Of a stretch of DNA of 64,000 bases, positions 27,564 through 47,935 are shown piece by piece. Under the pieces are notes generated by a model. The model had not been told where the DNA came from, did not search any database, and saw only the letters and a program-made list of their open reading frames with translations. Position numbers and translations under genes: made by a program. The first letter of the stretch is position 1, and each line of letters starts with the position of its first letter. This DNA is from a virus. Where the stretch lies: positions 18,762 to 82,761 of the IMG/VR virus record IMGVR_UViG_3300009034_002371; one strand, 5' to 3'.

Positions 27564-28109
27564 ATGGCCCGCCCCCCTTCTGCTATGATCTTAGCCGTTA
27601 AGGAAGCTTTTGGAGATCGACCTCTGACCGGTGCAGAGATTGGAGTATTCATAGGTGATAATGCCAAGTTTATATTGGATACGTTAAACCTCCAGAGGTT
27701 GTATCTTATAGATCCCTTTGATCCAAACAACGACTTCGAAGCCTATATAAAGCCCAGGGTAGGGAAAGCTAGAGCGCATGTTGTAAAGAGGTTGGAACAA
27801 TATGAACATATTGTTACATGGCTATTTGTAACGTCAGATGAGGCTGTTGACAGGATAACGGATATACTGGATTTTGTCTATATCGATGGTAATCATAGTT
27901 ACGAATATGTTAAGCGTGATATCGGAAATTACTATCGTTTAGTAAGGCCGGGCGGTTTTGTAGGCGGTCATGATTACATGATGCGAAAGAAGCCTCCTAT
28001 AGAGGCAAAAAGGGCTGTGGACGAGTTCGTACAAGAGCATGGATGTGACTTGGTAGTATCCAAAGAGTTTGACCCACATCACCCGGATTGGTGGTTTCGC
28101 AAGCAATGA
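27564..28109 (+). CDS. class I SAM methyltransferase, free-standing copy of the 30990 N-domain
   Basis: 181 residues, ATG 27564 with GAGGTGAT. Motif I TGAEIGVFIGDNAKFIL, acidic loop 'LYLIDPFDPNND', then 'LDFVYIDGNHSYEYVKRDIG' and 'RPGGFVGGHDYM'. The segment DFVYIDGNHSYEYVKRDI is identical in the fused protein at 30990. Its stop overlaps the ATG of the GT32-like gene by 4 nt, so the two products are made together; the same pair is a single polypeptide downstream. Methylation of a sugar on the growing glycan is plausible. Confidence 0.82.
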   Translation: MARPPSAMILAVKEAFGDRPLTGAEIGVFIGDNAKFILDTLNLQRLYLIDPFDPNNDFEAYIKPRVGKARAHVVKRLEQYEHIVTWLFVTSDEAVDRITDILDFVYIDGNHSYEYVKRDIGNYYRLVRPGGFVGGHDYMMRKKPPIEAKRAVDEFVQEHGCDLVVSKEFDPHHPDWWFRKQ

Positions 28110-28867
28110 TACATTTTATATGGTTGGGACCTGATGAGTTTAGATATGCAGACTATCTGGCAATCAGAACAGCTCAGAAAGTCTATAAAGAAGTTCCGTA
28201 TCTCTGGGTGGATGATACTGTACCGGAGAACGAGTGGTTAGCAAAGGCGAGAGGTTACAGTGTCCGACAACTTATTCCTGGCGATTGGCAGCGGTTTGTG
28301 GTTATAGGAAAGAAACAAAGTGCAAGTCAGAGCTCTAATTATCTGAGATATTGTCTCTTATATAGATTTGGTGGCCTATATTTAGATACGGATACGCTCT
28401 GCATTAAATCTATCTTTGATTTCGACTTGCAGGGTTTGGTAGTAGGTAGGGATGATGTTGTAAAGCGGTGGCCGTTGTGTACTGCTATTATGTATGTTAA
28501 GAAGTGCCACAATCCAGATGTAAAAGTTCTGCTACGGAGATGCATTGATATACTGGAGGAGTCCGGCGGTGATGTTAAATGGGGAACAACAGGACCGAGA
28601 TTACTAAGTGCTGTACTTCCCACAAGTGATAACCTACATACTCTTCTACCTAAAGAGTGTTTTTACTTCTATGGATACCCCGAGTGGCAGGAACTGTTTG
28701 AGGATAACCCTATAGATGAACGAATGTACGTACTTCACTACTGGGGTAAGTATGCCAGGGATCCCGAGTGTATGGGTTTAGATTGCATAACACCAGAGTA
28801 TATTAGAACATCAAATAGCCTTTATGCTAAAGTAGTGAGAAAAGTACTAGGGGAAGATTATCTATGA
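28106..28867 (+). CDS. GT32-like glycosyltransferase (Gly_transf_sug, DxD)
   Basis: 253 residues from ATG 28106 (ATGA overlap); the in-frame extension to 28088 is inside the methyltransferase gene. N-terminus IHFIWLGPDEFRYADYLA and the central 'SNYLRYCLLYRFGGLYLDTD' carry the YLR...GGxYxDxD signature of Och1/capsular-polysaccharide type GT32 enzymes. C-terminal 'VLHYWGKYARDPE' holds the late His-Tyr-Trp motif. Free-standing copy of domains found fused at 30990 and 32302. Transfers a sugar from a nucleotide donor in the cytoplasm; acceptor unknown. Confidence 0.83.
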   Translation: MIHFIWLGPDEFRYADYLAIRTAQKVYKEVPYLWVDDTVPENEWLAKARGYSVRQLIPGDWQRFVVIGKKQSASQSSNYLRYCLLYRFGGLYLDTDTLCIKSIFDFDLQGLVVGRDDVVKRWPLCTAIMYVKKCHNPDVKVLLRRCIDILEESGGDVKWGTTGPRLLSAVLPTSDNLHTLLPKECFYFYGYPEWQELFEDNPIDERMYVLHYWGKYARDPECMGLDCITPEYIRTSNSLYAKVVRKVLGEDYL

Positions 28868-28914
28868 TGTTGGGGAGTGAAATTCCGTAGCCCCCTCGTT
28901 AACACGGTAGTAAT

Positions 28915-29733
28915 ATGTTATCAGTGATAATTCCTATCATGGGAAAGCGCCCGGATCGGGTCCCCCTCTTTGCAGAAACGTTGCGGTGTATACAACAACA
29001 GGACTTTCGGGATTATGAACTAATCGTGGTAGAACAGTATTCGGATGAGCCAATGTGGGAGGAGGATGTAGCTACTTTCTCCCCCAGATATATTGCTATT
29101 CAAGGAAGTCCTCTTTGTGTGCCTTGGTGTAAAAACGTGGGGGCTCGAGAAGCTAGAAGCGATGTTTTAGTTTTCCTTGACGCTGATGTAGTATTCGGTA
29201 CTGATTACTTTCGCGTCATTATGGAGAATTTTACTTCAGCTAGGAAGTACTCCGCTGGATGGGATAGCACCCTATGGTTGCGTCAAACTGGGCTCCAGGA
29301 GTATTTATCTACGCACACTTATACACCTAACTGGAGTCCGGAGCTTCTTCAACAGGAATTATTTATAGGGTTAGATGGTCCCGTAAACTTTGGACTGTCT
29401 ATAGTTTTTGATAGGGAGTTTTTTAGGAGCATCGGGGGGTACAACGAGAATTTTGATATGTGGTCTGCAGATGATAAGGATCTGTTGACTAGAGCTATTG
29501 CCGCGACAGGTGACGACTGTAAGTTACACACCATACCGTATACCGTTCTTCATTTGTGGCATGATATGCGGGAGAAGTCCCCAACGTGGAAAGAAGACAG
29601 GGAATACCGGCTTAGTTGTGTAAGGAAATATCCCCTAGAAGTTTCAAGGCGTCTTGTAGAGGCACAAACCGGCAACCCAGAGCATAGGTCACTTATAGAT
29701 TGGCCCGATATGCGGTGGCAGGGGATTTTATGA
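28915..29733 (+). CDS. GT2 family glycosyltransferase
   Basis: 272 residues, ATG 28915. 'LSVIIPIMGKRPDRVPLFAE' start, 'DVLVFLDADVVFGTDYFRV' with DxD, and 'GGYNENFDMWSADDKDLLTR', the GGF(D/N)E...ED-type motif of GT2 enzymes. No membrane segment, so cytoplasmic. The closest relative in the window is the second domain of the 32302 product. It lies between the GT32-like gene and the radical SAM gene; 47 nt separate it from the former. Donor unknown. Confidence 0.85.
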   Translation: MLSVIIPIMGKRPDRVPLFAETLRCIQQQDFRDYELIVVEQYSDEPMWEEDVATFSPRYIAIQGSPLCVPWCKNVGAREARSDVLVFLDADVVFGTDYFRVIMENFTSARKYSAGWDSTLWLRQTGLQEYLSTHTYTPNWSPELLQQELFIGLDGPVNFGLSIVFDREFFRSIGGYNENFDMWSADDKDLLTRAIAATGDDCKLHTIPYTVLHLWHDMREKSPTWKEDREYRLSCVRKYPLEVSRRLVEAQTGNPEHRSLIDWPDMRWQGIL

Positions 29734-30993
29734 ATGGTATTGCTAATTAACTTACCGGCACCCTTTTTAGTTGAGCAAAGGGTACACCCACCACTGGGCT
29801 TATTATATCTAGGGGCTGTGCTACAAGAGAATAAAGTTGAGGTAGAAGTTGTTGATCTAGCAGGGCAGTCCTGTGAAGATCTGTTGGTGTATAATACCCC
29901 TGAGCTTGTTGGTATATCATCCGTTACTCCTCAGTTTGACGATGCCAAGGTTGTTCTGGATCGATTAAGGGAGCAGTGTCCAGATGTACCAGTTGTAATT
30001 GGAGGGCCCCATGCTACCGTCGATCCTAAGTCCTGTGGGGTCTTTGACTATATTGCAGTGGGCGAGGGAGAACAAGTTATTGCAGATTATAAAAAGTGGG
30101 GTGAGGCTAAGGTAATTCAATATACATCTGCAGGCGATCTAGATAGTATTCCTTTCCCGGCTAGGGATCTAGTGGATCTCGGATCTTATAGTTACGATAT
30201 CGGCGGCGAACCAGCTACAACTCTCGTGACTAGTCGCGGGTGCCCTTACCGTTGTGCATTTTGTTGTCGCACTTGTGGCCCTAGGATGAGGATGCGGTCT
30301 CCCGAGAATATTATTGAAGAGGTGCGTTTACTTAAGAGAAAGTATGGGTACAGGGCGTTTGCGATCTTTGATGATGTGTTTGTGCTAAATAGGAAGAGGA
30401 TTAGTAGGATAACGAGTTTATTGAAAAAGGAAAATGTGATATATAGGTGTTTTGTCAGGAGTGATGTTGTTGACTTGTCATTGCTCAGGATGCTTAAGGA
30501 GTCCGGGTGCTATGAGGTAGGGTTTGGGGCAGAGAGTGGCTCCCAGAAAATATTAGATGTTGTAGATAAGAGGACTAGCGTACAGCAAAATACACGGCTA
30601 GTTGAGATGTGTAAGCAGGTGAGTTTGAAAGTTAAGGCGTTTATGATTGTGGGCCTGCCGGGAGAAACTCACGAGACCATGCAGGAGACATATAACTGGT
30701 TAAGAGATGTTGCTCCCGATACCTGGGATGTATCCATTTATACTCCATATAAAGGTAGTCGAATAGTTAGTAGTCCGTTTTTATATGACATAAAGATAAA
30801 TAATATTGCTTTTAAGGATGCTTGGCACAAAGGAGTCCCAGGTGCGTATAAATGTGCCGTCTCCACTAGTGGCCTCAGCTCTGATGATATTGTACAGTGG
30901 CGGGATAAGATAGAAGCTGAGCTCGGAGGAAACCGGTACAAGCATCCCGTCTCTGATGTGCTCCACAGCCTGAGCACAGGTCCAATCTCATGA
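29734..30993 (+). CDS. B12-binding-type radical SAM enzyme
   Basis: 419 residues, ATG 29734. N-terminal ~130 residues: Rossmann-like cobalamin-binding-type domain ('LVGISSVTPQFDDAKVVLDR', 'VPVVIGGPHATVDPK', 'YIAVGEGE'), though the DxHxxG base-off motif is not evident. The radical SAM core follows with the 4Fe-4S motif C-x3-C-x2-C in SRGCPYRCAFCC (residues ~168-180), then 'VGFGAESGSQKILDVVDK' and 'KAFMIVGLPGETHETMQETY'. Family members perform C-methylations and other radical chemistry. Among methyltransferases and glycosyltransferases it may C-methylate or remodel a sugar. Its stop overlaps the next ATG. Confidence 0.85.
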   Translation: MVLLINLPAPFLVEQRVHPPLGLLYLGAVLQENKVEVEVVDLAGQSCEDLLVYNTPELVGISSVTPQFDDAKVVLDRLREQCPDVPVVIGGPHATVDPKSCGVFDYIAVGEGEQVIADYKKWGEAKVIQYTSAGDLDSIPFPARDLVDLGSYSYDIGGEPATTLVTSRGCPYRCAFCCRTCGPRMRMRSPENIIEEVRLLKRKYGYRAFAIFDDVFVLNRKRISRITSLLKKENVIYRCFVRSDVVDLSLLRMLKESGCYEVGFGAESGSQKILDVVDKRTSVQQNTRLVEMCKQVSLKVKAFMIVGLPGETHETMQETYNWLRDVAPDTWDVSIYTPYKGSRIVSSPFLYDIKINNIAFKDAWHKGVPGAYKCAVSTSGLSSDDIVQWRDKIEAELGGNRYKHPVSDVLHSLSTGPIS

Positions 30994-32312
30994 CTCATGA
31001 AGTTTTAACAGCAAAGCGGCTCCCAAGTACCTTAGTGCAGGAGCTCAAGCGGTCGTTTGGTAATGCACCAGTACGTGGTGCTGAAATTGGGGTTCTAGAC
31101 GGTCGGAATGCTCTGTACATGTTGCAGGCGCTAAATATTGAGAAGCTGTATCTTATAGATCCCTACGAGGGTTATAATGGATATTGTGATTTAGATGAAG
31201 ATACCTTACGCGTTGCCAGGACGATGGCAATGCAAAGGCTAAAGCCTTTTGAGGACAGAATTGTATGGCTTTACCTAAGATCAGATGAAGCTGTAGACAA
31301 AATACCAGATATGCTAGATTTTGTCTATATCGATGGTAATCATAGTTATGAATATGTTAAACGAGATATTGAGAATTATCACTGCTTGGTAAAGCCTGGC
31401 GGTTTTGTTGGAGGACATGACTATACTTCAAATATCGACCCGAGATATGTTATTAAGGTAAAGAAAGCCGTTGATGAGTTTGTTACTAAATATGGTTATA
31501 AGTTGTTCGTTCGCCCTTATAGAAAATCAGATGACTGGCCAGATTGGTGGGTGAGGACAGGAACAGTACATTTTATTTGGTTTGGCCCGGCAGCCTTAGG
31601 CTATGCAGATTTTTTAGCAGTTAAAACTGCTGCATTGGTGTATGGTGTAGCCCCCTATGTTTGGTTGGATGCTGTGCCCGAAAATGAGTGGCTATCAAGA
31701 ATAAGGGAGATTTCCATACAGGGGCAAATTAAAGATGAGTGGTTAGATATTGCACATTTAACTACAAATACTGGGCACCGATCAGATTACCTGAGATATC
31801 AACTTCTACATGACTTCGGTGGTTTATATTTAGATTTTGATACCATTTGTGTAAGATCCATTTTTGATCTCAGCCTCAATGGCGTAGTTGTAGGACGCCA
31901 GGGGATACAAATAGACCCTCTAAATGGTGCTGTTATGTATGTTGCCGAGCCTTGTCATCCAATTGTAAAGACTCTGTTGTGCAAATCTACTGACTTGTTG
32001 AAAAGGTTTGGGAGTGGGCTTCAATGGGAGGCTACAGGGCCCTGGCTGTTGAAGGAAGTGTTATTTGAGAATGAACATTCCCACACTATTTTACCTCAGG
32101 AGGTTTTCTACTTTTACAGTCCCTGTAATTGGCAGCAGTTGTTTAGGGATAATCCTGTAAGTGATCAAATGTATGTTATGCACTGGTGGCGCGCTGCTGC
32201 TAAGGGAAAAGTAGGTAAGATTGCGGCAAGGAAGATTACACCAGAGTATGTTAGAACGTCGAGTGAGTTTTATGCCAGGGTAGTTAGGGAGGTACTAGGG
32301 GATGACGTGTAG
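30990..32312 (+). CDS. fusion of SAM methyltransferase and GT32-like glycosyltransferase
   Basis: 440 residues, ATG 30990 in an ATGA overlap. Residues 1-~190 equal the methyltransferase at 27564 in layout (VRGAEIGVLDGRNALYM, LYLIDPYEGYNG, DFVYIDGNHSYEYVKRDI, KPGGFVGGHDYT). Residues ~193-440 equal the GT32-like protein at 28106 (VHFIWFGPAALGYADFLA, SDYLRYQLLHDFGGLYLDFD, MYVMHWWRAAAK). The junction falls where the two separate genes overlap by 4 nt, so a small indel in a duplicated pair explains the fusion. It ends 11 nt inside the next gene. The fusion supports that methylation and transfer are steps on the same product. Confidence 0.87.
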   Translation: MTHEVLTAKRLPSTLVQELKRSFGNAPVRGAEIGVLDGRNALYMLQALNIEKLYLIDPYEGYNGYCDLDEDTLRVARTMAMQRLKPFEDRIVWLYLRSDEAVDKIPDMLDFVYIDGNHSYEYVKRDIENYHCLVKPGGFVGGHDYTSNIDPRYVIKVKKAVDEFVTKYGYKLFVRPYRKSDDWPDWWVRTGTVHFIWFGPAALGYADFLAVKTAALVYGVAPYVWLDAVPENEWLSRIREISIQGQIKDEWLDIAHLTTNTGHRSDYLRYQLLHDFGGLYLDFDTICVRSIFDLSLNGVVVGRQGIQIDPLNGAVMYVAEPCHPIVKTLLCKSTDLLKRFGSGLQWEATGPWLLKEVLFENEHSHTILPQEVFYFYSPCNWQQLFRDNPVSDQMYVMHWWRAAAKGKVGKIAARKITPEYVRTSSEFYARVVREVLGDDV

Positions 32313-34431
32313 GTTAATACACTTTGTATGGTTTGGACCTAGACCTTTAGGTTATACTGAGTTTCTGGCTGTTAAAACAGCCCGTAAGATATATGGGGTT
32401 GAACCATACCTCTGGACAGACAATTCTGTCCCGGAAAACGAGTGGTTGTTAAGAATAAAAGAGATCGCCGTACAAAAACAGATTAAAAGTGAGTGGCAGC
32501 AGATCGCTAACCTTGCCAGCAAGTATAATTACAAATCAGACTATCTAAGATATCAACTCCTACACGATTACGGGGGTTTGTACCTAGATATAGATACCCT
32601 CTGTGTGAAACCTATCTTCGGCCTCGTTCTGCAGGGTTTGGTCGCCGCGCAGCAGCAGTCTTCCAAAGAGCCCATCAATGGCGCTGTTATGTATGTTGCC
32701 GAGCCTCAGCATCCAGTTGTGGCTGCCCTCTTAAACGAATCTATAAGAATACTCAGAGAGGTCAAGTCTATGACCTGGTCAGAGATTGGCCCTAAATTGC
32801 TTTCCAAAACTTTGAAACCGAATATTGATTGTACTATACTACCTCATGAACATTTCTATTTCTATAAGTCGTCTCACTGGCGGCAGATATTTGAGGATAA
32901 TCCTATAGATGACCAGATGTGTGTTATTCATTGGTGGAACAAACATGCAGGTGCATTTGCCAGGAAAACTGTTAACCCAGAATATATTAGGACTTCTAAC
33001 AGCCTCTATGCCAAGATGGTAAAGAGAGTGTTAGGTTCGGATTATGGTTTGTCCCAGAAGACACCTGCACTGTCGGCTATTGTTTCTATTATGGGTGATC
33101 ACCCTCAGCGAGCCAGAAACTTTGAAGCGACTCTGCGGTGTATACAGCAACAAGACTTCCAAGACTATGAGCTAGTAATTGTAGAGCAGTATATAGAGAA
33201 GCCTCTATGGGAGAGTCGTGCTAAATCTCTAAATGCAACTTACATGACCATCACAGAGAGTACCCTACCTGACTGGGCACGCTTCTGCCTTTCGTGGTGT
33301 AAGAATGTCGGAGCCCGGGTATCTAAGCATGATACTTTATTGATGCTTGATGGTGATGTGGCATTTGGTAATGATTACTTTTCACGTGTGGTTAGTACTT
33401 TCAGGACTGATTGGGGTTACCTTATGGGATTTAGCTTGCTTATCCGGTTGAACACCAAAGGTACTGGCATCTACTTGAGAGATGGGACCTACCATGCGGA
33501 GTGGCCACGTGAGCATGTTGAGAAGACTAACAATCCAGGTTTCTCAGGTAGTGGAGGCGGGGGTGGTTCCGTTGTCTTCGACAAGCGGTTTTTCTTTGAT
33601 GTTATAGGGGGTTATAGTGAGAATTATTTCGGCTGGGGTAAAGAGGATAAAGATTGTCTACTGAGGGCTTATAGATTTGCTGGAGGCAATGAAGAGGGTA
33701 GGTTAAGGCGTATGGACTACACCCTACTGCATTTGTTCCATCGCCACATAGGACTCGCGCATAGGCCGAAGGAAGCGACTACCCACTATTTCAAGTATAC
33801 ACGGCCATATCCACGTCGTGTTACACATCTTCTCGTGGAGGCCCAAGTAGGTAGACCGGAGCATAGAACTCTTATAGATCTGTCGCGTTTGGATTCTCCC
33901 AGTGCTGGTTGTGTTGAACTTCAAAGATCCCCGTTGTCCCAGGAAGAACGTGTGAGTATGTTGGGTAACCACCACCCCGAGTATAGTTTTGAAGATTTCA
34001 CTAATCAAAAGTTGTTCGATGCCACAGATCTAGACGGCTCTGTCATTGTTGGCAGTTGTTTCTATCAGGATCCCGATTCTCAAGATGCAGATCCTCGCGT
34101 GAAAGTTTTTCCTGATGATATGCAGGGGGTTACGTTTATTGAATGCAATTTAGATAATGTGTATGTACCCCCAGGTAATACAGTTGACCTCTTGTGTTCT
34201 TGTAGGAGGATCAAACGTCAGAATGACGGAGAGTCTTGGATACTTAATGAAGATCTAGTGCCTATTGAGCCATTGAGCAAGGAACGCTTAGCCGCGGTTG
34301 GTGGTAATATAGTCCCCAGGAAGATACCGCGACGTGCTATACGTAAAGAGGAATTGCGTCGCTTACGCAGTGAACGAATGAAGAAGTTCCAAGAGTTTTA
34401 CGCGTCTCGAGAGAGGCAGGATGAAGAATGA
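32302..34431 (+). CDS. fusion of GT32-like and GT2 glycosyltransferases with a phage-type C-terminal domain
   Basis: 709 residues, ATG 32302 (overlaps preceding gene). Domain 1 (1-~250): GT32-like, 'YLRYQLLHDYGGLYLDIDTL'. Domain 2 (~255-530): GT2, related to the 28915 product ('ALSAIVSIMGDHPQRARNFE', 'DTLLMLDGDVAFGNDYFS', 'GGYSENYFGWGKEDKDCLLR'). Domain 3 (~540-709): a module I associate with other phage proteins, with 'VFPDDMQGVTFIECNLDNVY' and 'PPGNTVDLLCSCRRIKRQND', followed by a Lys/Arg-rich helix. Domain 3 may dock the enzyme to virion or assembly proteins (inference). The first two domains are duplicates of separate upstream genes. Confidence 0.8.
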   Translation: MTCRLIHFVWFGPRPLGYTEFLAVKTARKIYGVEPYLWTDNSVPENEWLLRIKEIAVQKQIKSEWQQIANLASKYNYKSDYLRYQLLHDYGGLYLDIDTLCVKPIFGLVLQGLVAAQQQSSKEPINGAVMYVAEPQHPVVAALLNESIRILREVKSMTWSEIGPKLLSKTLKPNIDCTILPHEHFYFYKSSHWRQIFEDNPIDDQMCVIHWWNKHAGAFARKTVNPEYIRTSNSLYAKMVKRVLGSDYGLSQKTPALSAIVSIMGDHPQRARNFEATLRCIQQQDFQDYELVIVEQYIEKPLWESRAKSLNATYMTITESTLPDWARFCLSWCKNVGARVSKHDTLLMLDGDVAFGNDYFSRVVSTFRTDWGYLMGFSLLIRLNTKGTGIYLRDGTYHAEWPREHVEKTNNPGFSGSGGGGGSVVFDKRFFFDVIGGYSENYFGWGKEDKDCLLRAYRFAGGNEEGRLRRMDYTLLHLFHRHIGLAHRPKEATTHYFKYTRPYPRRVTHLLVEAQVGRPEHRTLIDLSRLDSPSAGCVELQRSPLSQEERVSMLGNHHPEYSFEDFTNQKLFDATDLDGSVIVGSCFYQDPDSQDADPRVKVFPDDMQGVTFIECNLDNVYVPPGNTVDLLCSCRRIKRQNDGESWILNEDLVPIEPLSKERLAAVGGNIVPRKIPRRAIRKEELRRLRSERMKKFQEFYASRERQDEE

Positions 34432-36368
34432 GAACTATACCAGTAAAGGAATATGTTGAAGATAGGATAGAAGATAACGGATCGTATAGTCGGACTTTTC
34501 TGTCCTATCCTAAATACCATAGGCATGAAGATGGTACCCTCCATGAGACTGATTGCACTATTATAGAGAGTCAGGATCCTGATTGGGATTGGGAAGTTAC
34601 CGAGGGTGTCTGGACTCTTTATGTTAAAAGAGATGGTACCTTCCAGTCGCGGTTCCATGAACATACTGTTACAAGGAAGCCGGTTGGTATTGGATTTTAT
34701 AATATCAGAACCAAGACTTCCATAAACAGAGTTGAGTTTGATTTAACTACATGGGACGTTGAGGTTGGGCATGATACCATAACATGGACAAATCCTGAGA
34801 ACGGTATTATCTTTAAGGTATGGTATATACATGATCAGGCTCGAGGTATCGTGGAACTTCCACAAGAAGTACAAACAGAGTTATTAGCTAAGAGGCGCAA
34901 GAGCTGGTCCCGTGAAAATACTTATGTTAGCGTTATTTACGATGCTGATATGAATTTTCAGGATGAGGATATGGAGTCCGAAGATCGGATCAGACATAAG
35001 CATCCTGATTGGGAGATCCAGATCGGAGGGCACCACATCGTCCATGAAAAATTCGGTCGGAAACCGAATCCACATCCCCCAGAGGTTGAGCGGGAAGATG
35101 CAGATGAGTCACTAGATTATACATGGCCCAAACGTAAGATATACTTTGCCGAACAGAAGAAGTTCATCGAAGCCTGTAGAATAGATGCTCTGGAAAGCGA
35201 AGATGGGAAAATCATTTTCAATACTACCGATACCTTTGGTTTTGCTTTCTGCGAAGATGCCTATATCCGTGGCTATCCTAATTACAATAATACCAACTAT
35301 AATGGTGTCGGTCTTATTGTAGATGGGCACACCAGTTCCGCGTGTGAGTATTTTTCGTTTATCAGATTCAACTTGAGTAGTCAGCTTGGTATCCCAGGTA
35401 CTATATCTCTTGTTCGCTTGTACTTATACTGCTATAATACTTCCTACGGTGGGATCGATTACATGTATGCCAGCCCGACACTCAAGCCGTGGACAGAAAC
35501 GGGAGTTACCTGGCGTAGATGGAATGGCTCTGCGTATTGGAATGACCCGGGAGCTTGGTACGGGTTTTATGACTGGGAGGGATGTGAATACGATTTCAAT
35601 ACCCTGAATGGGGCTGGTTGTGATATTAGTAAGTATTACGCCTCTAGGCCGGTTAATGAAGGTCACGAGGATTCCTATATAGCTATTGGTGATCTTGGGT
35701 TCCATAATATGTTTGACCATCTCCAGGCCCAGTGGGAGGCCGATAAGTGGTATGGTTGGAAAATCCACAACCCGTCTGACGAGCTTGGGAGAGCATATTT
35801 TAGAGATTCTGAGTATGCGACTGTTGGTCAGAGGCCCTATTTAGAAGTTACTTGGGTATCTAGTAGTTCAAGTAGCTCTGCCTCGTATAGCTGTAGTTCC
35901 TCAAGTTCCAGCTCGTCCCACTCCAGTTCTTCCTCGTTTAGTTCTAGTTCTTCCAGCTTCAGTAGTTCAAGCTCATCGTGTTCTAGTTCCTATCCAGGTC
36001 CATACTACGTTAGGGCGGACGCACTCGGTGGAGGTGTGGGAGATGCCGATACTCAGGCTCGAGCTCTTACTCCGGAAGAATTTAGAACTCATAATGCAGG
36101 GTCCCCGGTAACCTATTACGTTAAAGGAAAATTTGGAACATGTTTAGGTGACTACGCATTTAGTGGTAACTTAAACTACTCGGCAAGGGATGGTAATTTT
36201 GCTAATGCTATGCTTATCAAGGGATACCTGAACAACGGGCCACTTGACGTAGTCCACGGAAGGTATCGTCCAAGATTTATTCTTGGGGATGTCTCTCTGA
36301 GTTCGTCAAGCTCGTGTAGTTCAAGTTCTGGTTCTTCAAGTGTTAGTTCTTCAAGTAGCTCTACTTGA
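34428..36368 (+). CDS. DNRLRE-type adhesin with poly-Ser linkers and a truncated beta-helix cap
   Basis: 646 residues, ATG 34428 (ATGA overlap). The N-terminal ~200 residues are a conserved domain shared with 36427 ('FLSYPKYHRHEDGTLHETDC'). Then a DNRLRE-like cell-surface domain ('CEDAYIRGYPNYNN', 'FSFIRFNLSSQL', 'WTETGVTWRRWNGSAYW'). Poly-Ser from about residue 478 to 521, with scattered Cys, Phe and His. Residues ~523-622 match only the first part of the beta-helix protein at 39838 (YYVRADALGGG / RYVRADAAGGG, ...RPRFILGD / RPRIACG), then a second poly-Ser tract and the stop. Possibly a split or truncated spike. No signal peptide; virion-attached adhesin by context. Confidence 0.7.
   Translation: MRTIPVKEYVEDRIEDNGSYSRTFLSYPKYHRHEDGTLHETDCTIIESQDPDWDWEVTEGVWTLYVKRDGTFQSRFHEHTVTRKPVGIGFYNIRTKTSINRVEFDLTTWDVEVGHDTITWTNPENGIIFKVWYIHDQARGIVELPQEVQTELLAKRRKSWSRENTYVSVIYDADMNFQDEDMESEDRIRHKHPDWEIQIGGHHIVHEKFGRKPNPHPPEVEREDADESLDYTWPKRKIYFAEQKKFIEACRIDALESEDGKIIFNTTDTFGFAFCEDAYIRGYPNYNNTNYNGVGLIVDGHTSSACEYFSFIRFNLSSQLGIPGTISLVRLYLYCYNTSYGGIDYMYASPTLKPWTETGVTWRRWNGSAYWNDPGAWYGFYDWEGCEYDFNTLNGAGCDISKYYASRPVNEGHEDSYIAIGDLGFHNMFDHLQAQWEADKWYGWKIHNPSDELGRAYFRDSEYATVGQRPYLEVTWVSSSSSSSASYSCSSSSSSSSHSSSSSFSSSSSSFSSSSSSCSSSYPGPYYVRADALGGGVGDADTQARALTPEEFRTHNAGSPVTYYVKGKFGTCLGDYAFSGNLNYSARDGNFANAMLIKGYLNNGPLDVVHGRYRPRFILGDVSLSSSSSCSSSSGSSSVSSSSSST
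34581..34639 (+). repeat. 59-bp near-exact repeat of paralogous adhesin genes, copy 1
   Basis: Differs from 36580-36638 at one position only (C/T at the 20th base); surrounding N-terminal coding sequence is also clearly homologous. Marks a recent tandem duplication of the 34428/36427 genes. Confidence 0.88.
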
Positions 36369-36426: not shown

Positions 36427-39400
36427 ATGAAACCTCAACCAACGGGTTTATATACCGAAGACGCGATAGAATCGGGTGGTATGCACCATACCACCTTCCT
36501 ATCCTATCCCAAATATCATCGACATGAAGATGGTACTCTCCATGAGACTGATTGTGTTATCAGGGACAGTCAGGACCCTGATTGGGATTGGGAAGTTATC
36601 GAGGGTGTCTGGACTCTTTATGTTAAAAGAGATGGTACTTATCAGTCCCGATTTCATGATTATACTATCACGAGAAAGCCAGTTGGTGTTGGGTTCTGTA
36701 ACACACATTCCAAGAAGTGTGTCGTTAAGATAGACTTTGATCTGAACTCCTGGGTAGTCAAGATCGATGGGGATACTGCAACATGGACAAATCCCGATAA
36801 CGGTATTGTTTTCAAAGTCCAGTATATACATGATCAGGCTCGAGGTATCGTAGAACTTCCACAAGCAGTACAAACACAACTGTTAGAGGATTGTGGATCC
36901 TGGCCAGTTGAAGATACCTCCGTTTGTGTTATTTATGATGCCGATATAGACTTCCTTAGTGAAGATGTAGATACTGTAGATAGTATAATAGATGGGAACT
37001 CGAAGTGGGTAGTTAAAGTTGGAGGACTTTATGTAGTTCACGAGAAGCATGGACTGGTAAGTAAAGAACACCGCGATAATCTCGCTTGGCAAAAGCATAC
37101 GATATACCTTCCTGAACAAAAGAGATATATTGAAGCATGTGCTCTAGATGCTTTAAAAAGTGAAGATGGCGTACTTATCTTTAACGATACTGATACGTTT
37201 AAGGAAGGTGTGGATGGCTACTCAGGCTGCGAGGATACTTATATAGAGTTAAGTAGTGAAACCACCCACGGTAGTTCTACCCAGATATACTGCGACGGGG
37301 ACTCTTGGGATACAAAGAAAGTCTTGATTAAGTTTGACCTAAGTGGTGAGATTCCACTAGTTCCTCATCAAACAATAACTTCTGCTTCCCTGGGTCTATA
37401 CGTTCTTAACCACTTTGATGGCCCAGCTGACTCCCTTCGGATTATGTGTGCAGGTGTCCTTAAACCATGGACAGAAGATGAGGCTACCTGGACGCGCTGG
37501 CATAAAACAAATGACAAGTGGTGGCACAGTAGCGGCTGTGATGCTAAGAATGACTATGCCTACTTCAATAGTTTTAGTGGTTATGGGTATGATAGATTTA
37601 GTAGTTGGACCCAAGCGTTTATTAACGAAAGTGATGAGGATGACTACACTTCATGGGTTGTTAGACCATGGCAAATACAAAAGCAGTATGATGCTCAGCT
37701 CTGGTATGGTTGGGTACTCGACCCTGGCGTTCCAGAGCATGTAGAAATTACTTTTGCTAGTTCGGAGCATGCTGATCCAACAAAGCGGCCGTATCTGACA
37801 GTTACCTGGGAACCAACTAGTTCCTCAAGCTCCAGTTCGAGCTTCAGTAGTAGTTGTTCCAGTTCGAGCTTCAGTAGTAGTAGTTCTTCATGGGGCCCCT
37901 ACAGTTGTCAGTTTGGAGATTATACAGTACTACAACACCTTCATTTTGAAACTGAAAACCCTGATGGGATCCAAATTGGTAAATATAGTATTGTCCATAA
38001 CTGTTATGCTAACCAGGCCTCCCCCACTGCAGACTATCCAGCGTGGAAAGCAACTGGAAGCGGATTTAATGTAACTTCGTTCATCAGCTGTGAAGGGGCT
38101 AGTGTTGGTGGGTACGCCTTCTATACAGATCTTGAGGATATAACCTTCACAGGGTGCCTTGCTCGTGATAGTAATGTTGGTTTTTATGTTGGAAACCAGG
38201 CTATCAGATTAGTCCATAATCTGATTTATAACTGTGCACGTGGTATACATATAGCAAGTAGAGATACCTTTATACATGGCAATACTATTTACAACTGTAG
38301 TACCTGTGGAATATATCTTGGTACTACTTGGGCCAGTGTGTACATTCTAGGCAATATTTTAGATTCCTGTGACTATGGTATATTGGCATCTTTTCGACAA
38401 CCGGCATGCTATCTTGATTGGAACAATTTCAGTAATAGCCTCACTCTAGATATAGCCCAGTCTGGTGGCCAAGACGTTGTGAATAAGGGGCCGAATACTA
38501 CCTCCCTTGATCCTGGTTTCTTTGATATAGGAAGTTTAGATTTCCGTGTTGGTCAACATATGAGGGGACTTGGTGTTAAGTCTAATTTTGGTAGTAATAA
38601 TATTATAGCAGCTAGTTGTATCGGCTATCCGGATCAGGGAGCCATACAGCGGAGAGAGGTAATTGGTGAGGATGCAGCGGTATGGGAGACAGGACCTGAT
38701 GCACATACCGGAATTGGTTATGTGAAGCTGAGTCCTACTCACGCTAGTAGATATCCCCTGAAGTGGGAATTCTTAGCTCCTGTCAAAGCTGATCGTGCTC
38801 TTCAGTTTAGCTTTTGGCGTAAGGGGAGTTTTAGTGGTACATTTCAATTTCTTGCAACAGGTGTTGGTATAAGCATATCTGAGGTTGTTGCTGTACCGGG
38901 TTCGTATCAACAACATATATCCCCTGTGGTGACTCCAACTTCGGATCAGTTTGCCAAGATAACGTTACAAGCGCAAGGAACAGGTACTATCTATGTCGAT
39001 GACTTTGGAACTTCGCAAAGTTGTTCCTCAAGCTCATCGTTCTCAAGTAGTTGTTCCTCAAGCTCATGTAGTAGTTCCTGTTCGTCAAGTTCATGTAGTT
39101 CATCGTTCTCAAGTAGTTGTTCCTCAAGCTCATCAAGTTCATGTAGTTCATCGTTCTCAAGTAGTTGTTCCTCAAGTTCATGTTCGAGTAGCTTCTCAAG
39201 TAGTTGCTCTTCGAGCTCCAGCTTTAGTTCATCATGCTCAAGTAGCTTCTCAAGTTCATGTAGCAGCTCCTCGTTCTCAAGCAGCTGCTCATCGAGTTCA
39301 TCATGTTCAAGTAGCTTCTCATCGAGTTCATCATGTTCAAGTAGCTTCTCAAGTAGCTGTTCATCGAGCTTCTGTTCATCAAGTTCATGTTCAAGTAGCT

Positions 39401-39828
39401 TCTCGAGCTCCTGTTCATCGAGCTTCAGCTCATCGAGTAGCTGTTCAAGTAGCTTCAGTAGCTGCAGTTCAAGCTTCAGCTCATCAAGTTCATGTTCAAG
39501 TAGCTTCTCGAGTTCATGCTCTTCGAGCTTCAGCTCATCGAGTTCATGTTCAAGTAGCTTTAGTAGCTGCAGTTCATCGTTCTCAAGTAGCTGCTCATCG
39601 AGCTTCAGCTCATCGAGTTCGTGCTCAAGTAGTTTTAGTAGCTCATCGAGTAGCAGTTTCAGTTCATCGAGTTCATGTTCAAGTAGTTTCTCAAGTTCAT
39701 GTTCAAGTAGCTTCTCAAGTTGTTCATCGAGCTCCAGCTTTAGTTCATCATGTTCAAGTAGCTTCTCAAGTTGTTCATCGAGCTCCAGCCTTAGTTCATC
39801 ATGTTCAAGTAGTTCGAGCATACAGTAG
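36427..39828 (+). CDS. giant DNRLRE/beta-helix adhesin with a ~270-residue Ser/Cys/Phe tail
   Basis: 1133 residues, ATG 36427 with a GGGGG-type site upstream. Order: conserved N-domain (1-~205, as in 34428); DNRLRE-like domain (~235-455, CEDTYIELSSETT..., KPWTEDEATWTRW); poly-Ser linker (~463-488); beta-helix without the first cap (~490-730, 'FISCEGASVGGYAFYTDLED', 'NTIYNCSTCGIYLGT'); jelly-roll CBM-like domain (~745-862, also in 39838); then from residue ~865 to the end a tract of Ser with Cys and Phe at about every fourth or fifth place (CSSSFSSSCSSSF). Probably a virion fibre or surface protein; the tail could be a glycosylated stalk. No secretion signal. Confidence 0.72.
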   Translation: MKPQPTGLYTEDAIESGGMHHTTFLSYPKYHRHEDGTLHETDCVIRDSQDPDWDWEVIEGVWTLYVKRDGTYQSRFHDYTITRKPVGVGFCNTHSKKCVVKIDFDLNSWVVKIDGDTATWTNPDNGIVFKVQYIHDQARGIVELPQAVQTQLLEDCGSWPVEDTSVCVIYDADIDFLSEDVDTVDSIIDGNSKWVVKVGGLYVVHEKHGLVSKEHRDNLAWQKHTIYLPEQKRYIEACALDALKSEDGVLIFNDTDTFKEGVDGYSGCEDTYIELSSETTHGSSTQIYCDGDSWDTKKVLIKFDLSGEIPLVPHQTITSASLGLYVLNHFDGPADSLRIMCAGVLKPWTEDEATWTRWHKTNDKWWHSSGCDAKNDYAYFNSFSGYGYDRFSSWTQAFINESDEDDYTSWVVRPWQIQKQYDAQLWYGWVLDPGVPEHVEITFASSEHADPTKRPYLTVTWEPTSSSSSSSSFSSSCSSSSFSSSSSSWGPYSCQFGDYTVLQHLHFETENPDGIQIGKYSIVHNCYANQASPTADYPAWKATGSGFNVTSFISCEGASVGGYAFYTDLEDITFTGCLARDSNVGFYVGNQAIRLVHNLIYNCARGIHIASRDTFIHGNTIYNCSTCGIYLGTTWASVYILGNILDSCDYGILASFRQPACYLDWNNFSNSLTLDIAQSGGQDVVNKGPNTTSLDPGFFDIGSLDFRVGQHMRGLGVKSNFGSNNIIAASCIGYPDQGAIQRREVIGEDAAVWETGPDAHTGIGYVKLSPTHASRYPLKWEFLAPVKADRALQFSFWRKGSFSGTFQFLATGVGISISEVVAVPGSYQQHISPVVTPTSDQFAKITLQAQGTGTIYVDDFGTSQSCSSSSSFSSSCSSSSCSSSCSSSSCSSSFSSSCSSSSSSSCSSSFSSSCSSSSCSSSFSSSCSSSSSFSSSCSSSFSSSCSSSSFSSSCSSSSSCSSSFSSSSSCSSSFSSSCSSSFCSSSSCSSSFSSSCSSSFSSSSSCSSSFSSCSSSFSSSSSCSSSFSSSCSSSFSSSSSCSSSFSSCSSSFSSSCSSSFSSSSSCSSSFSSSSSSSFSSSSSCSSSFSSSCSSSFSSCSSSSSFSSSCSSSFSSCSSSSSLSSSCSSSSSIQ
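36580..36638 (+). repeat. 59-bp near-exact repeat of paralogous adhesin genes, copy 2
   Basis: Counterpart of 34581-34639 with a single mismatch; see that entry. Confidence 0.88.
39016..39825 (+). repeat. degenerate Ser-codon microsatellite-like tract encoding the Ser/Cys/Phe tail
   Basis: About 810 bp built almost only of AGT, AGC, TCA, TCG, TCC, TCT with interspersed TGT/TGC and TTC/TTT. Recurrent blocks such as AGTTCATGTTCAAGTAGC and TCATCGAGCTTCAGCTCA appear many times in shifted order. All three readings on the + strand and a Glu/Leu-rich one on the - strand stay open for long distances, simply because the tract lacks stop triplets; only the Ser frame continues a real gene. Confidence 0.85.
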
Positions 39829-41266: not shown

Positions 41267-42124
41267 ATGGCAAGCTCAAGTTCTAAAGTACCCCGTGATA
41301 CAGGTACATTTGAGTATCGTTATCGAGATAGCGCTCTGCCACCTGTAATTCATGATGATGAAAAGTATAATCTACCATCACAGGATTTCATCGATGAACT
41401 AAACGACCCTTCATTTTTCCAGGGAGATTTTTATGAGGATGTAAGTCTAAGTTCTAGCTCATCGAGCTCTTGTTCTCCAAGTCCAAGTTCATCAAGCTCA
41501 AGTAGTATAAGTCTTTCGTGTTCTAGCTCTTCAAGTTATAGTTCACAGTCGGTAAGTAGTTCATCTTCAAGTTGTAGTAGTCTTGAAGCCCCAGACGTAA
41601 CTGACGCCAGAGTAGACCCACCACGTTTTCGTTCCGGTGAAATTATATGTGCTAGGTATACCTATCATGGTGCTTTTCCTGAAGCCGGTTCTCAGATCCG
41701 TTGGTATAAGAACGATGTATATCAGCCGGATCATGATAATGAGATATGTTTCGAAGTAACTGGTCAACGGGGAGATGTTTGGTTCTTCTATGTTACACCA
41801 TGTGATGCGTTTGTATGTGGGAACCCTGTGGAGTCTCTCCCTGGGATTATGATAAATAACCCTCCGTCTGCACCCTCCCGTATAGAGATTGTTCCTCATA
41901 ATCCACAGGTGGATGATGACTTATTTGCAATTGTAGAGGGATCTGTCGATCTCGATGGTGACAGGATTATATATCATATAACATGGTACAGACTCAGGGA
42001 CGGGGTTACTGAGGAGTTAGTAGCGTATCGTAATAAGACTACGGTACCGTATACTGAGGTACAGGAGGGAGATGTATTCTCCATTGAGGCTAGGGCATTT
42101 GACGGAAGTGATGAGTCCGGGTAG
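41267..42124 (+). CDS. poly-Ser and Ig/FN3-like domain virion protein
   Basis: 285 residues, ATG 41267 with a GGTAG-type weak site. N-terminal ~60 residues unique (FEYRYRDSALPPVIHDDEKY...), then poly-Ser (about 60-107, 'SLSSSSSSSCSPSPSSSSSS'), then two Ig-like repeats ('SGEIICARYTYHGAFPEAGS' with RWYKNDVYQPDHD, and 'DLDGDRIIYHITWYRLRDG'). Similar Ig repeats occur in the 45836 product (IQWYRNGGRQSGYDNL). Probable structural or fibre-decorating protein at the end of cargo block 2, next to the neck genes. Confidence 0.6.
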   Translation: MASSSSKVPRDTGTFEYRYRDSALPPVIHDDEKYNLPSQDFIDELNDPSFFQGDFYEDVSLSSSSSSSCSPSPSSSSSSSISLSCSSSSSYSSQSVSSSSSSCSSLEAPDVTDARVDPPRFRSGEIICARYTYHGAFPEAGSQIRWYKNDVYQPDHDNEICFEVTGQRGDVWFFYVTPCDAFVCGNPVESLPGIMINNPPSAPSRIEIVPHNPQVDDDLFAIVEGSVDLDGDRIIYHITWYRLRDGVTEELVAYRNKTTVPYTEVQEGDVFSIEARAFDGSDESG

Positions 42125-44588: not shown

Positions 44589-45836
44589 ATGGCACTTAAC
44601 GCAGCGATTGTGTGGGAGGTAAGAACCTCCGGCAATAATAATAATGGTGGAGGCTTCAAAGCGGGGGCATCTGGGACTGATCGCTCGCAACAGGACGCTG
44701 CCCATTTATCTTTTACCGATCTAGAAGTTAAGGGCGCGGTCTATACCAGAGTATACTCTGTCACAGAGAATGCAAACTTAGTTGCTACTTGTATTGGAAA
44801 CTTAATCCATATAACTGGCGACGGTGGCTCCGGGCTTTTTACAGTCGGGTTTTATGAGGTCACTGGGCAAGGTAACGATGGTAATAACTATCTCGATATA
44901 GATAGGAACTGCGCTACTGGTAATGCTAGTGACGGAATTGCCGCCCTCGGGGGCGCTGTTGCGGACTTATTGGAGATAGATAGTGTTGTAGTCGCGGGTA
45001 ATACCATGTATGTTAAAGCTGGAACGTACGCTCACGCTAGTGCGTTAAGTGTAAACAATGGTACTGCTAGTCTATATATTAAAACAATAGGCTATAATAC
45101 TGCTAGGGGTGACGCCCCCACAGGTGATAACAGGCCACTGATACAGGACGGCGGTAACGAACAGAAATGGGGAACGTATAACGAGATTGAGAATTTCAGA
45201 CGTACAGGTTCTCACACCTACGGTATCTATACTTTGAACTACTGCGTTATTCGCAATTGCAAGAGTACGGTAGCAGCTAACACACGCTGCTTCAGGTATG
45301 GTGCTGGAAGTGTTGTGATCGATTGTGAAGCTATTGGACCTGGTACCCTAGGGATAGGTTTTGAATCGTCCGGAGGTGGTTCATTTACAATAGCTTGTTA
45401 TGCCGAGGGTTTGAACCGAGGCTATGAACATGTAATAGGTAATGAGGTAGTCGCCTTCTGCACTTTCGATACTTGTACATATGGGTGGTACGGTAATAAC
45501 GTTAATGGTCGCCCAGGTTGTAAAATTCTCAATAATAATTTTTATAACAGCTCGAATACTGGTGTGTATGGTAATTATGGAGGGCAGACAGCGTATTCCT
45601 GGCTCGTTCTGAATAACCAATTTGTGGACTGCGGTGTTGGCATGCAAATAACTATTTCTTCGCCAGGGGTATATCTTGATTTTAATAACTTCTTTAATAA
45701 TACCACAGATGTAACTAACGTTATCAAGGGTGCAAATACAACAGCGAACAATCCCGGATATACAAATGCCCCTGCTGGCGATTTCAGTGGTGTTGACAGT
45801 GCAGACGGCTTTGGTATTAGACTTGGAGTTGGATAA
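44589..45836 (+). CDS. right-handed beta-helix fibre or tailspike protein, paralogue of 25669
   Basis: 415 residues, ATG 44589 with a GAGGAGG site. N-terminus WEVRTSGNNNNGGGFKAGA is the attachment segment shared with 25669. Beta-helix coils include 'SVVIDCEAIGPGTLGIGFES', 'AFCTFDTCTYGWYGNNVNG' and 'NNNFYNSSNTGVYGNY'; ends 'NNFFNNTTDVTN' like 25669 ('NNWYNNGGNDVTN'). The TAA stop overlaps the next ATG (TAATG), so it is coupled to the poly-Ser/LVIVD gene; the two may form one appendage. Receptor-binding candidate. Confidence 0.68.
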   Translation: MALNAAIVWEVRTSGNNNNGGGFKAGASGTDRSQQDAAHLSFTDLEVKGAVYTRVYSVTENANLVATCIGNLIHITGDGGSGLFTVGFYEVTGQGNDGNNYLDIDRNCATGNASDGIAALGGAVADLLEIDSVVVAGNTMYVKAGTYAHASALSVNNGTASLYIKTIGYNTARGDAPTGDNRPLIQDGGNEQKWGTYNEIENFRRTGSHTYGIYTLNYCVIRNCKSTVAANTRCFRYGAGSVVIDCEAIGPGTLGIGFESSGGGSFTIACYAEGLNRGYEHVIGNEVVAFCTFDTCTYGWYGNNVNGRPGCKILNNNFYNSSNTGVYGNYGGQTAYSWLVLNNQFVDCGVGMQITISSPGVYLDFNNFFNNTTDVTNVIKGANTTANNPGYTNAPAGDFSGVDSADGFGIRLGVG

Positions 45837-47935
45837 TGGCTCAAGCAACAATATACCAAGGGGCCTGGCAGCAAAGTACCTATCAAGGGGCCTGGCAAGA
45901 GCAAGCGCCTGTTTCCAGTTCGTCTTCATCCTTGAGCAACTCATCGAGTAGCTGTTCATCAAGCTTCAGCTCATCGAGTTCATGTTCAAGTAGCTTCAGT
46001 AGCTGTTCCTCGAGTTCAAGCTTCTCGAGTAGCAGTTTCAGTTCATCGAGTAGCAGTTTCAGCTCATCAAGTTCATGTTCAAGTAGCTTCAGTAGCTGCA
46101 GTTCATCGTTTTCGAGTTCATGTAGCAGCTCATCGAGCTTCAGCTCATCGAGTTCATGTTCAAGTAGCTTCAGTAGCTGCAGTTCATCGTTCTCGAGTTC
46201 ATGTTCAAGTAGCTTCTCAAGTAGCTGTTCGTCAAGCTTTGCTTCCAGCTCATGCAGTAGCAGTTTTAGTTCCGGTTCGCTTTCATCCTCATCTTCGAGC
46301 AGTTTGGCTGTTCCGCGTCCACCAGAGGCTCGGAACGTGATTATTCGACCTCTAAGTCCACGGCCTCATCATGATCTAGAGCTGACCTATGATTACTATG
46401 ATCCTGACGGTGACCCCGAGCAGGGATCTTTAATCCAGTGGTATAGGAATGGTGGGCGTCAATCGGGCTATGATAACTTGTCAACACTTCCCTACACGGC
46501 TACCAGTGCAGGTGAAATCTGGTACGCTATGGTTCGACCGAGAGATAATCAGGGGTTGTGGGGAAACTGGGCTATTTCTAACATTGTGCGGATATCGTCT
46601 GTCATTACAGACTGGTATTATGGTCCGGGTGCATATCCAAGCAGACAATTCGAGCGCCGGCCGGTAGTTCCTAGCTTTTCAAGTTCATCACGTTCAGTAA
46701 GTTCAGTAAGTGCAAGTTCTTCGAGTAGTTCTAGTTTATCAGGTATAAGCAGTTCGAGTAGTAGATCATCCGAGTCGCTTTCTGAATCATACTACTTTAT
46801 GGATACTGCATTCAAGTCTACAAGCTCCTATGTGTTTGCTACTGTTATAAGTTACGCCACCGGCAATCCTAGGGGAGTTGTGTCTATAGATGTGGACGAT
46901 CCATCGAACCCGAGCATTGTTGGCTGGTTGCCAATTGATCCTACTGTTTATGGTAGCGTTAAACATTGTCAGATTACAAATTCTGGCCACCTTGCAGTGA
47001 GCCTTAGTGAATGGAGTGGTGTTTCTGGAGGTGTAATCTTAGTTGATATATCTAACCCTGCCTCCATGTCGTTGATGGGGAAATATAGTCTTGGAAATCC
47101 AGCCACATATGTTACCAGTGTGAACTACTTCGATGTGGCTACCATCACGGGGCCTGAGGAACGTATTTATCTTGCAACAGCTGATAGTGCGCTGGGATTA
47201 GTTGCCGTAGATATAGATAATCCTAATAGTTTAACCAAGGCCGGTGACTATGTGCCAGGGACGGAGATTTTTGATGTTGCTGTTACTAATAACAATGTTG
47301 TTGTTATAACTAATAACAGAGTTCGGTTCTTGTCTAGAAACGATTCTCTTACACTTCAGAGCGAGCCCGATCTAACGACAGCCCCTGGAACTTCCGGGAG
47401 CTGTCCTACCTGCAACTACGACCCAAGCAAAGCTACGGGCTTTAACGATACTGATTTCAAGTTACTTACTCTTGCCGCAGACGCAGCAGCAAACGTTGTC
47501 TATTTTGTAGTACGTAAACTCGATGCAACAGCAAGCCACTTATGGGTGGTCAACTCCGGTGGAGTGGAAAGTCTTGCCCCAATTAGTTTTGGAACTACAT
47601 CAGATCTTCAAATGGTTATTTACTTCAACACCGGAGTATATGTATGTGCTTCGGTTAGTGCTCGTATATTGTACTCCCACGATTCAAATAATACTATTGA
47701 TTTTTGCGACACCCCTTGGTATATGGGAATGAACTGTGGACCACCAACACCGTCCATTTACCTAGATTACCCTGTGTCTAAAGATACTAAAAGTCATGAT
47801 ATTATAGGAATAGATGGGGGTATAGTGTCTGCAACACCTTATATATTCTGTGCTTGTATGGATGAGGGGTTGAGGATTTATGACGTAACTGACATAAGTA
47901 ATCTTTCATTGGAGTATGTAAACTTTGGTCAATAG
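45836..47935 (+). CDS. QGAWQ/poly-Ser/Ig/LVIVD-propeller virion protein
   Basis: 699 residues, ATG 45836. Order: an N-terminal pair of IYQGAWQ/TYQGAWQ repeats (1-~25); Ser/Cys/Phe tract (~28-156); an Ig-like domain ('IQWYRNGGRQSGYDNLST'); second poly-Ser (~282-320); then a beta-propeller of LVIVD-type repeats ('GVVSIDVDDPSNPSIVGWL', 'GVILVDISNPASMSLMG', 'LVAVDIDNPNSLTKAGDY', 'LRIYDVTDISNLSLEYV'). The same QGAWQ-then-Ser beginning is found in the gene cut by the right edge. Probably a tail-associated or surface protein displaying a propeller at the end of a Ser-rich stalk. Confidence 0.7.
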   Translation: MAQATIYQGAWQQSTYQGAWQEQAPVSSSSSSLSNSSSSCSSSFSSSSSCSSSFSSCSSSSSFSSSSFSSSSSSFSSSSSCSSSFSSCSSSFSSSCSSSSSFSSSSSCSSSFSSCSSSFSSSCSSSFSSSCSSSFASSSCSSSFSSGSLSSSSSSSLAVPRPPEARNVIIRPLSPRPHHDLELTYDYYDPDGDPEQGSLIQWYRNGGRQSGYDNLSTLPYTATSAGEIWYAMVRPRDNQGLWGNWAISNIVRISSVITDWYYGPGAYPSRQFERRPVVPSFSSSSRSVSSVSASSSSSSSLSGISSSSSRSSESLSESYYFMDTAFKSTSSYVFATVISYATGNPRGVVSIDVDDPSNPSIVGWLPIDPTVYGSVKHCQITNSGHLAVSLSEWSGVSGGVILVDISNPASMSLMGKYSLGNPATYVTSVNYFDVATITGPEERIYLATADSALGLVAVDIDNPNSLTKAGDYVPGTEIFDVAVTNNNVVVITNNRVRFLSRNDSLTLQSEPDLTTAPGTSGSCPTCNYDPSKATGFNDTDFKLLTLAADAAANVVYFVVRKLDATASHLWVVNSGGVESLAPISFGTTSDLQMVIYFNTGVYVCASVSARILYSHDSNNTIDFCDTPWYMGMNCGPPTPSIYLDYPVSKDTKSHDIIGIDGGIVSATPYIFCACMDEGLRIYDVTDISNLSLEYVNFGQ
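45922..46305 (+). repeat. second long degenerate Ser/Cys/Phe codon tract
   Basis: About 380 bp of AGY/TCN with TGT/TGC and TTC, sharing blocks such as AGTTCATGTTCAAGTAGC with 39016-39825. Encodes residues ~29-156 of the 45836 product. Probably expanded by slippage or recombination between such tracts. Confidence 0.8.

Follow-up and report, generated by a model that had tools for sequence, protein, structure and literature searches.

We analysed a 64,000-nucleotide (nt) stretch of viral DNA, hereafter the window, which covers bases 18762-82761 of the 82,761 bp IMG/VR record IMGVR_UViG_3300009034_002371. Our subject is the Ser-rich C-terminal tail of the fibre-like protein encoded by the open reading frame (ORF) at position 36427, and a cassette of transferase genes upstream of it. 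The source is an uncultivated virus that infects bacteria or archaea, and its record (82.8 kb) is probably incomplete. It is a contractile-tailed phage, with a baseplate wedge protein (ORF 60700, E 4.5e-38) and a tail sheath (ORF 48013, E 1.4e-12) that resembles those of Bacillus phage G and others only distantly. Table 1 lists the features of the window that concern us. The N-terminal domain of the fibre-like protein is 45% identical to ORF 34428, and its beta-helix/beta-sandwich part is 37% identical to ORF 39838. The latter paralogue (39838-41250) stops exactly at the point where the tail of ORF 36427 starts, so the tail is an optional, modular add-on. A further tract of the same Ser/Cys/Phe type is found in this genome at record position ~7634-8104 (L007; related loci are given by L numbers).

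Table 1. Genes and Ser tracts of the window, in order of position.
Feature	Coordinates	Strand	Remarks
Sugar-nucleotide modification genes	9500..14925	+	NeuD-type acetyltransferase, epimerase, aminotransferases, oxidoreductase, second acetyltransferase
Cassette methyltransferase	18411..19052	+	Methyltransf_23
Cassette GT9-like enzyme	19091..20647	+	predicted fold like TibC/WaaF; conserved C-terminal Cys cluster
Cassette second GT9-like protein	20666..21433	+	57-58% identical to relatives; putative class from sequence pattern, no Pfam match
Cassette GT8-like protein a	21437..22435	+	putative class, no Pfam match
Cassette GT8-like protein b	22465..23472	+	52% identical to relatives; putative class, no Pfam match
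Protein with short Ser tract near C-terminus	23516..24820	+	directly downstream of transferase cassette
Further glycosyltransferases (Gly_transf_sug, GT2-like) and B12/radical SAM	28088..34431	+	just upstream of tract-bearing fibre genes
Paralogous fibre-like protein	34428..36368	+	CBM96 match; shorter Ser tracts
Fibre-like protein, 1133 amino acids (aa)	36427..39828	+	N-terminal domain, short Ser linker, beta-helix/beta-sandwich part, Ser/Cys/Phe tail
Short Ser linker with Phe/Cys inside the 36427 protein	37819..37890	+
C-terminal Ser/Cys/Phe tail	39013..39825	+	S209 C33 F25; not in paralogue 39838-41250
Protein with short Ser tract (41450)	41267..42124	+
699-aa protein with LVIVD repeats	45836..47935	+	second Cys/Phe Ser tract near N-terminus
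Second Cys/Phe Ser tract	45914..46303	+	38-nt exact stretch in common with the 36427 tail

The tail runs from residue 863 (nt 39013) to a final Ile-Gln pair followed by the stop codon (39826-39828). It consists of 209 Ser, 33 Cys, 25 Phe, 2 Gln, one Leu and one Ile. This agrees with an earlier note on this stretch, which had described a Ser tail with near-periodic Cys and Phe from which the other residues one mutational step from Ser are nearly absent; Pro, Thr, Ala, Arg and Tyr do not occur at all. The distance between neighbouring Cys/Phe residues is most often 4 (34 cases), followed by 6 (10), 5 (5), 3 (4), 8 (2), 1 (1) and 10 (1). Compared with 1000 shuffles of the tract, spacing 4 is seen 34 times vs 6.0 expected (z 12.5), a Cys followed by a Phe at spacing 4 is seen 20 times vs 1.5 expected (z 15.7), and Cys and Phe alternate 47 times vs 27.9 expected. 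A heptad coiled coil was considered and rejected: F-S2-C-S3-F locally yields a 3-4 spacing, but a heptad is not maintained by the 4-4 and 4-6 spacings that predominate. AlphaFold2 run on the single sequence of the tail gives no secondary structure (pLDDT about 25-39), and the stacking solenoid that the earlier note had offered as a possible role thus finds no support. At the DNA level, the tail includes tandem repeats with units of 48, 51, 54 and 105 nt, and exact stretches of 38-44 nt are common to the tracts of this genome, with the tail sharing 38-nt ones with two other tracts. The tail has therefore grown at least partly by duplication and exchange, and duplication is a likely growth route of the tract. 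Because of the tandem repeats the Cys/Phe sites of the tail are not independent of each other, and the independent evidence comes from other genomes. Other registers of the tail region also hold long open frames (38991-39851 on the minus strand and 38993-39901 on the plus strand), a by-product of the Ser codon composition.

The earlier note had argued that selection and not slippage maintains the pattern, and had proposed to count the substitution neighbours of Ser codons against a neutral model. That count excludes neutral drift. If the Ser codons present in the tail mutate by one step, at a transition/transversion ratio of 1 and 3 respectively, the expected numbers are 5.0 and 3.0 for Cys (32 observed), 0.5 and 1.0 for Phe (25 observed), and 4.4 and 8.0 for Leu (1 observed). 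The corresponding p values (Cys <1e-18, Phe <1e-28) are overstated, since the repeats are copies and the events not independent. The codons tell the same story. The motif CSSSF is present 220 times in the window genome and six related loci, and its 158 DNA spellings include all eight TCN/AGY arrangements. In the Cys/Phe tracts, both codons are in use for Phe (TTT/TTC 305/367) and for Cys (TGT/TGC 431/300), and the one-step neighbours of these two residues are rare (Leu 30, Ile 10, Val 19, Tyr 27, Trp 10). Adjacent identical Ser codons number 40 in the window genome vs 96.5 by chance (z -6.9), and most relatives have a deficit too. In all genomes tested, a Cys followed by a Phe at spacing 4 is commoner than in the shuffles (z 8.9 to 19.1), and at spacing 3 the pair is nearly absent; the residue four before a Phe is a Cys in 269 of 671 cases in the Cys/Phe tracts, and some tracts include CDSAF as an alternative spelling of the C-x3-F motif. 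Because of the many DNA spellings, the excess of C-x3-F across genomes and the CDSAF variants, we conclude that spacing and residue identity are kept at the protein level, and the argument for selection is borne out by the substitution spectrum, the spellings and the spacing alike. Homologues that preserve the spacing, for which the earlier note had also called, do exist within one phage group, in independent genomes and with both C-x3-F and CDSAF, but Cys and Phe are not universal.

Related loci were collected in several ways. Scanning IMG/VR with a DNA pattern for S-C-S-S-S-F-S identifies true Ser/Cys/Phe tracts in five contigs. A tblastn search with the tract returned 600 stretches and no confirmed relative, with low-complexity filtering as the probable cause, and the gene of the GT9-like cassette enzyme finds no relatives as a single-sequence query. 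An alignment of the enzyme used as query yields 40 viral loci. Amongst the related loci, the residues that space the serines are Glu every 3-6 positions (L118, L130, L134), His every 5 (L138, with 63 cases of HSSSSH in 60 spellings), Pro/Leu every 9 (L112), Gln/Leu/Glu (L137) and Phe/Arg/Leu/Val (L103). His, Glu and Gln are more than one mutational step away from Ser codons. Three of these tracts have near-perfect periodicity as proteins, L138:5-1741 (HSSSS), L112:7619-8380 (PSSSSSSSS) and L118:3-863 (ESSSS), with 60 of 63, 13 of 13 and 35 of 37 units respectively in distinct DNA spellings, like a codon-scrambled synthetic gene. In a tree of the enzyme, which includes three mis-framed rows (L103, L104, L138) and was used to compare spacer type with lineage alone, the Glu and Pro/Leu types are nested among the Cys/Phe types, and spacer type follows lineage. 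What is constant across the kindred tracts is Ser and not Cys/Phe, and the earlier note overlooked both this constancy and the enzyme cassette. Thr is nearly excluded from the Cys/Phe tracts (8 codons vs 6,555 Ser codons), as an enzyme acting on Ser alone would favour.

In the relatives, the gene order is a Ser-tract gene, the methyltransferase, in some cases an HldE-like and an HldD-like gene, the GT9-like gene, more transferases and often a second Ser-tract gene. There are 26 loci with a close cassette (the window, L099-L122 and L139, some of them from near-identical contigs). In 22 of them the stretch read includes a Ser tract that draws on both Ser codon families; of the four without one, two are fragments that start inside the cassette. 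All five contigs with true Cys/Phe tracts from the pattern scan include the cassette, and none of 35 control records has the GT9-like gene. We also asked whether poly-Ser tracts of any kind go with enzymes of the GT2 or GT1/4 families; the link is weak (~7/20 tract records vs 4/25 controls above cut-offs), and we do not use it as proof. Searching the isolate phages of INPHARED with two cassette proteins finds no homologue, and the N-terminal part of the fibre has none in isolate phages either. The sole match of the cassette enzyme in a cellular genome is L139 (JAGMCN010000046.1), a phage-like contig that has the complete cassette together with heptose genes and is binned into a WOR-3 metagenome-assembled genome; 146 other genomes of that phylum do not have the enzyme, and the binning is a weak hint at a host.

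The GT9-like enzyme is modelled by AlphaFold2 with a pLDDT of 89, lower in the C-terminal Cys region, and the predicted structure has the GT-B fold of the GT9 heptosyltransferase type. By Foldseek, the model's best matches in the PDB are WaaF (1psw, E 2.7e-9) and TibC (4rb4/4rap, E 5.2e-9), with the highest TM-score, 0.64, for TibC; searching the PDB by sequence profile gives a marginal WaaF match only. TibC uses ADP-heptose to O-heptosylate TibA and AIDA-I on Ser and not on Thr, and it requires a C-terminal Cys4 iron finger formed by Cys-339, 342, 358 and 370 (PMC4358343). The phage enzymes have three invariant and two near-invariant C-terminal Cys (C258, C259, C264, C273 and C283 in A5), which sit where TibC has its iron finger but with another spacing, in a region of low model confidence. 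The N-terminal beta-barrel is missing from the 308-aa homologues of L108-L114, which start at the catalytic domain. NCBIfam TIGR04414 does not match the window enzyme; only the distant L137 homologue is detected, at 22.2 bits vs a cut-off of 200. Because it lacks the barrel and falls below this cut-off, we do not file the phage enzyme as a bacterial autotransporter heptosyltransferase; it may work like one. In eight loci (L099, L100, L101, L102, L105, L106, L120/L121 and L139), genes similar to the heptose-7-phosphate kinase HldE lie no more than 5 kb upstream of the enzyme, and most of these loci also have a gene like the heptose epimerase HldD (in L139, E 1.7e-46 and 3e-62 respectively). The corresponding count in controls is 0 of 12. 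In the window phage, the GT9-like enzyme is fused at its C-terminus to a receiver-like domain (cREC_REC, E 1.3e-7).

The reading that we favour, with a probability of about 0.58, is that the tail forms a flexible stalk on the virion, with serines that the phage glycosylates by means of its own cassette. It draws on the conserved adjacency of cassette and tracts, the TibC/WaaF fold, the Cys cluster, the ADP-heptose genes, the exclusion of Thr, the modularity of the tail and its lack of predicted structure. The absence of Thr counts here because plain linkers are expected to tolerate Thr, Gly and Pro. The tail would be long, flexible and exposed at the surface, appended to a fibre-like protein of the phage, and its serines would be O-glycosylation acceptors modified inside the infected cell. 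The first sugar would probably be put onto Ser by the TibC-like GT9 enzyme; it would be heptose in relatives with ADP-heptose genes, and host-supplied heptose or another sugar in the window phage. The neighbouring transferase-like proteins and the methyltransferase would extend or cap this sugar, with the amino-sugar genes at 9500..14925 as a possible glycan supply. The residues that interrupt the serines at regular intervals (Cys/Phe here; Glu, His, Pro/Leu and Gln/Leu in the kindred) would divide the run into Ser blocks of about 2-8, set spacing or register for the enzymes and tune the chemistry of the stalk. Of the three roles that the earlier note had raised, the S/O-glycosylated mucin-like fibre is thus the best supported, by way of the conserved cassette, its enzyme of predicted TibC/WaaF fold and the ADP-heptose genes.

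Several observations weigh against this reading. Uncultivated phages often have poly-Ser tracts, yet the GT9-like gene is present in just 5 of 31 other poly-Ser records, a count that leaves out four further matches picked for having the gene, so poly-Ser as such is wider than the cassette. The cassette lies about 13 kb away from the tail gene in the window, and the GT8-like and second GT9-like classes are putative, assigned by sequence pattern and not by family match. The 82.8 kb record, probably incomplete, has no HldE-like or GmhA-like gene, and heptose would therefore have to come from the host or be made from the missing part, unless the sugar is another one. Finally, the match to the lipopolysaccharide enzyme WaaF is as good as that to TibC, so that host lipopolysaccharide or some other acceptor could be what the cassette modifies.

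Amongst the alternatives, an unmodified spacer fares best, although we regard it as unlikely. The tail would be a disordered Ser linker that lends reach to a receptor-binding or anchoring end, and the cassette would serve, for example, host surface glycans. This would fit the lack of predicted structure, the relatives in which tracts lie linker-like between beta-domains, and the many poly-Ser phages without a GT9-like gene; however, the almost complete exclusion of Thr and Pro, the strict periodicity of the non-Ser residues and the conserved adjacency of the cassette would be unexpected, and the tail studied here ends its protein and does not join two domains. A cross-linked fibre, in which the Cys of C-x3-F form disulphides and the Phe form hydrophobic contacts between released tails to give a stiff oxidised stalk, would explain why the directional motif recurs in independent genomes, also as CDSAF. 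We find it distinctly improbable, as Cys and Phe give way to Glu, His, Pro/Leu or Gln/Leu in sister phages that have the same cassette, spacings vary and no structure is predicted. The disulphide-laced stalk of the earlier note therefore cannot be the general role, and could still apply to the window phage. There is a slim chance that Cys is itself the modification site, by S-glycosylation or as a radical SAM product, within a C-x3-F recognition motif spaced by Ser: C-x3-F is the sole recurrent motif, Cys is frequent four residues before Phe and the window encodes a B12/radical SAM protein, but tracts without Cys accompany the same cassette, and the radical SAM gene has no match in the related loci read. 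A neutral or selfish repeat, that is, a Ser microsatellite enlarged by slippage with Cys and Phe as drift, is barely credible, for although the tandem repeats and common exact stretches point that way, it is ruled out as a full account by the substitution spectrum and by the codon data (mixed TCN/AGY, few adjacent identical codons, and the many spellings of CSSSF).

The glycosylated stalk that we favour has one of its closest parallels in the autotransporter heptosyltransferases of bacteria and their substrates (TibC-TibA, AAH-AIDA-I). Both have a GT-B/GT9 fold, which is predicted for the phage enzyme, a C-terminal Cys cluster, Ser rather than Thr, and a Ser-rich surface protein encoded near the modifying enzyme, and several related phages have ADP-heptose genes. 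The differences are that the enzyme here is phage-encoded, with no N-terminal beta-barrel in the shortest homologues, that the putative acceptor is a poly-Ser tract in place of a beta-helix passenger, and that the phage cassette adds several transferase-like genes and a methyltransferase. In Gram-positive bacteria, serine-rich repeat adhesins also have long Ser repeats that are O-glycosylated by enzymes from the same locus; they differ in being cell-wall adhesins with SASTSAST-type repeats, other transferases and another secretion route. Mycobacteriophage virions are reported (work cited in PMC12619734) to have glycans on the C-termini of capsid and tail tube proteins, with linked transferases and a shielding role. 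These phages are the nearest phage precedent, which the proposed stalk would resemble in having glycans on C-terminal extensions of virion proteins. We know of no long periodic Ser tract and no GT9/heptose type of enzyme in mycobacteriophage virion glycosylation. The poly-Ser linkers of carbohydrate-active enzymes in Saccharophagus, Teredinibacter and Microbulbifer share the long Ser runs in modular carbohydrate-linked proteins; they are interdomain linkers of secreted enzymes, and the tract of the window forms the C-terminal end of a phage fibre-like protein, where no further domain follows. To our knowledge, those linkers lack periodic Cys/Phe, and no linked transferase cassette has been reported for them.

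The literature searched holds no description of the pairing of Ser tracts with this cassette. More tentatively, and at somewhat less than even odds, we propose a widespread virion-decoration system of uncultivated phages not described before, in which Ser tracts hundreds of residues long, with lineage-specific periodic spacers kept at the protein level over scrambled codons, would serve as dedicated scaffolds for Ser-specific O-heptosylation by a conserved phage cassette. If true, phages make their own heavily glycosylated stalks by a protein-Ser heptosylation known so far from bacterial adhesins, and some of the glycosyltransferase and ADP-heptose genes abundant in viral metagenomes gain a concrete role, with bearing on adsorption, shielding and particle stability. 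Tracts that are periodic as proteins and scrambled in their codons are also natural repeat proteins without DNA repeats, useful for the study of low-complexity selection.

Some further observations concern neighbouring genes and other tracts. A B12-binding radical SAM protein (29734-30993) lies within a run of glycosyltransferase genes in the window, and 5403-9500 and 14928-17845 hold an array of mutually similar paralogues with the motif KYFENAACGAV...DREALGFEH that look glycosyltransferase-like by eye. L051 (complement of 3-7304) and L068 (complement of 9626-12835) are one contig with very long frames (2,434 and 1,069 aa in the stretches read), in which beta-type domains alternate with Ser/Cys/Phe tracts. 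Very long Ser tracts are also found in other uncultivated phages, mostly without a GT9-like gene (L145, L150, L160, L172, L170, L194, L226); their types are E/P/Q, E, R/C, CR, DC and almost pure Ser, and they total up to about 1,000 aa. In L007, a candidate extracytoplasmic function (ECF)-type RNA polymerase sigma factor, so called from its appearance, is encoded at 17856-18389 and adjoins a capsid-like gene.

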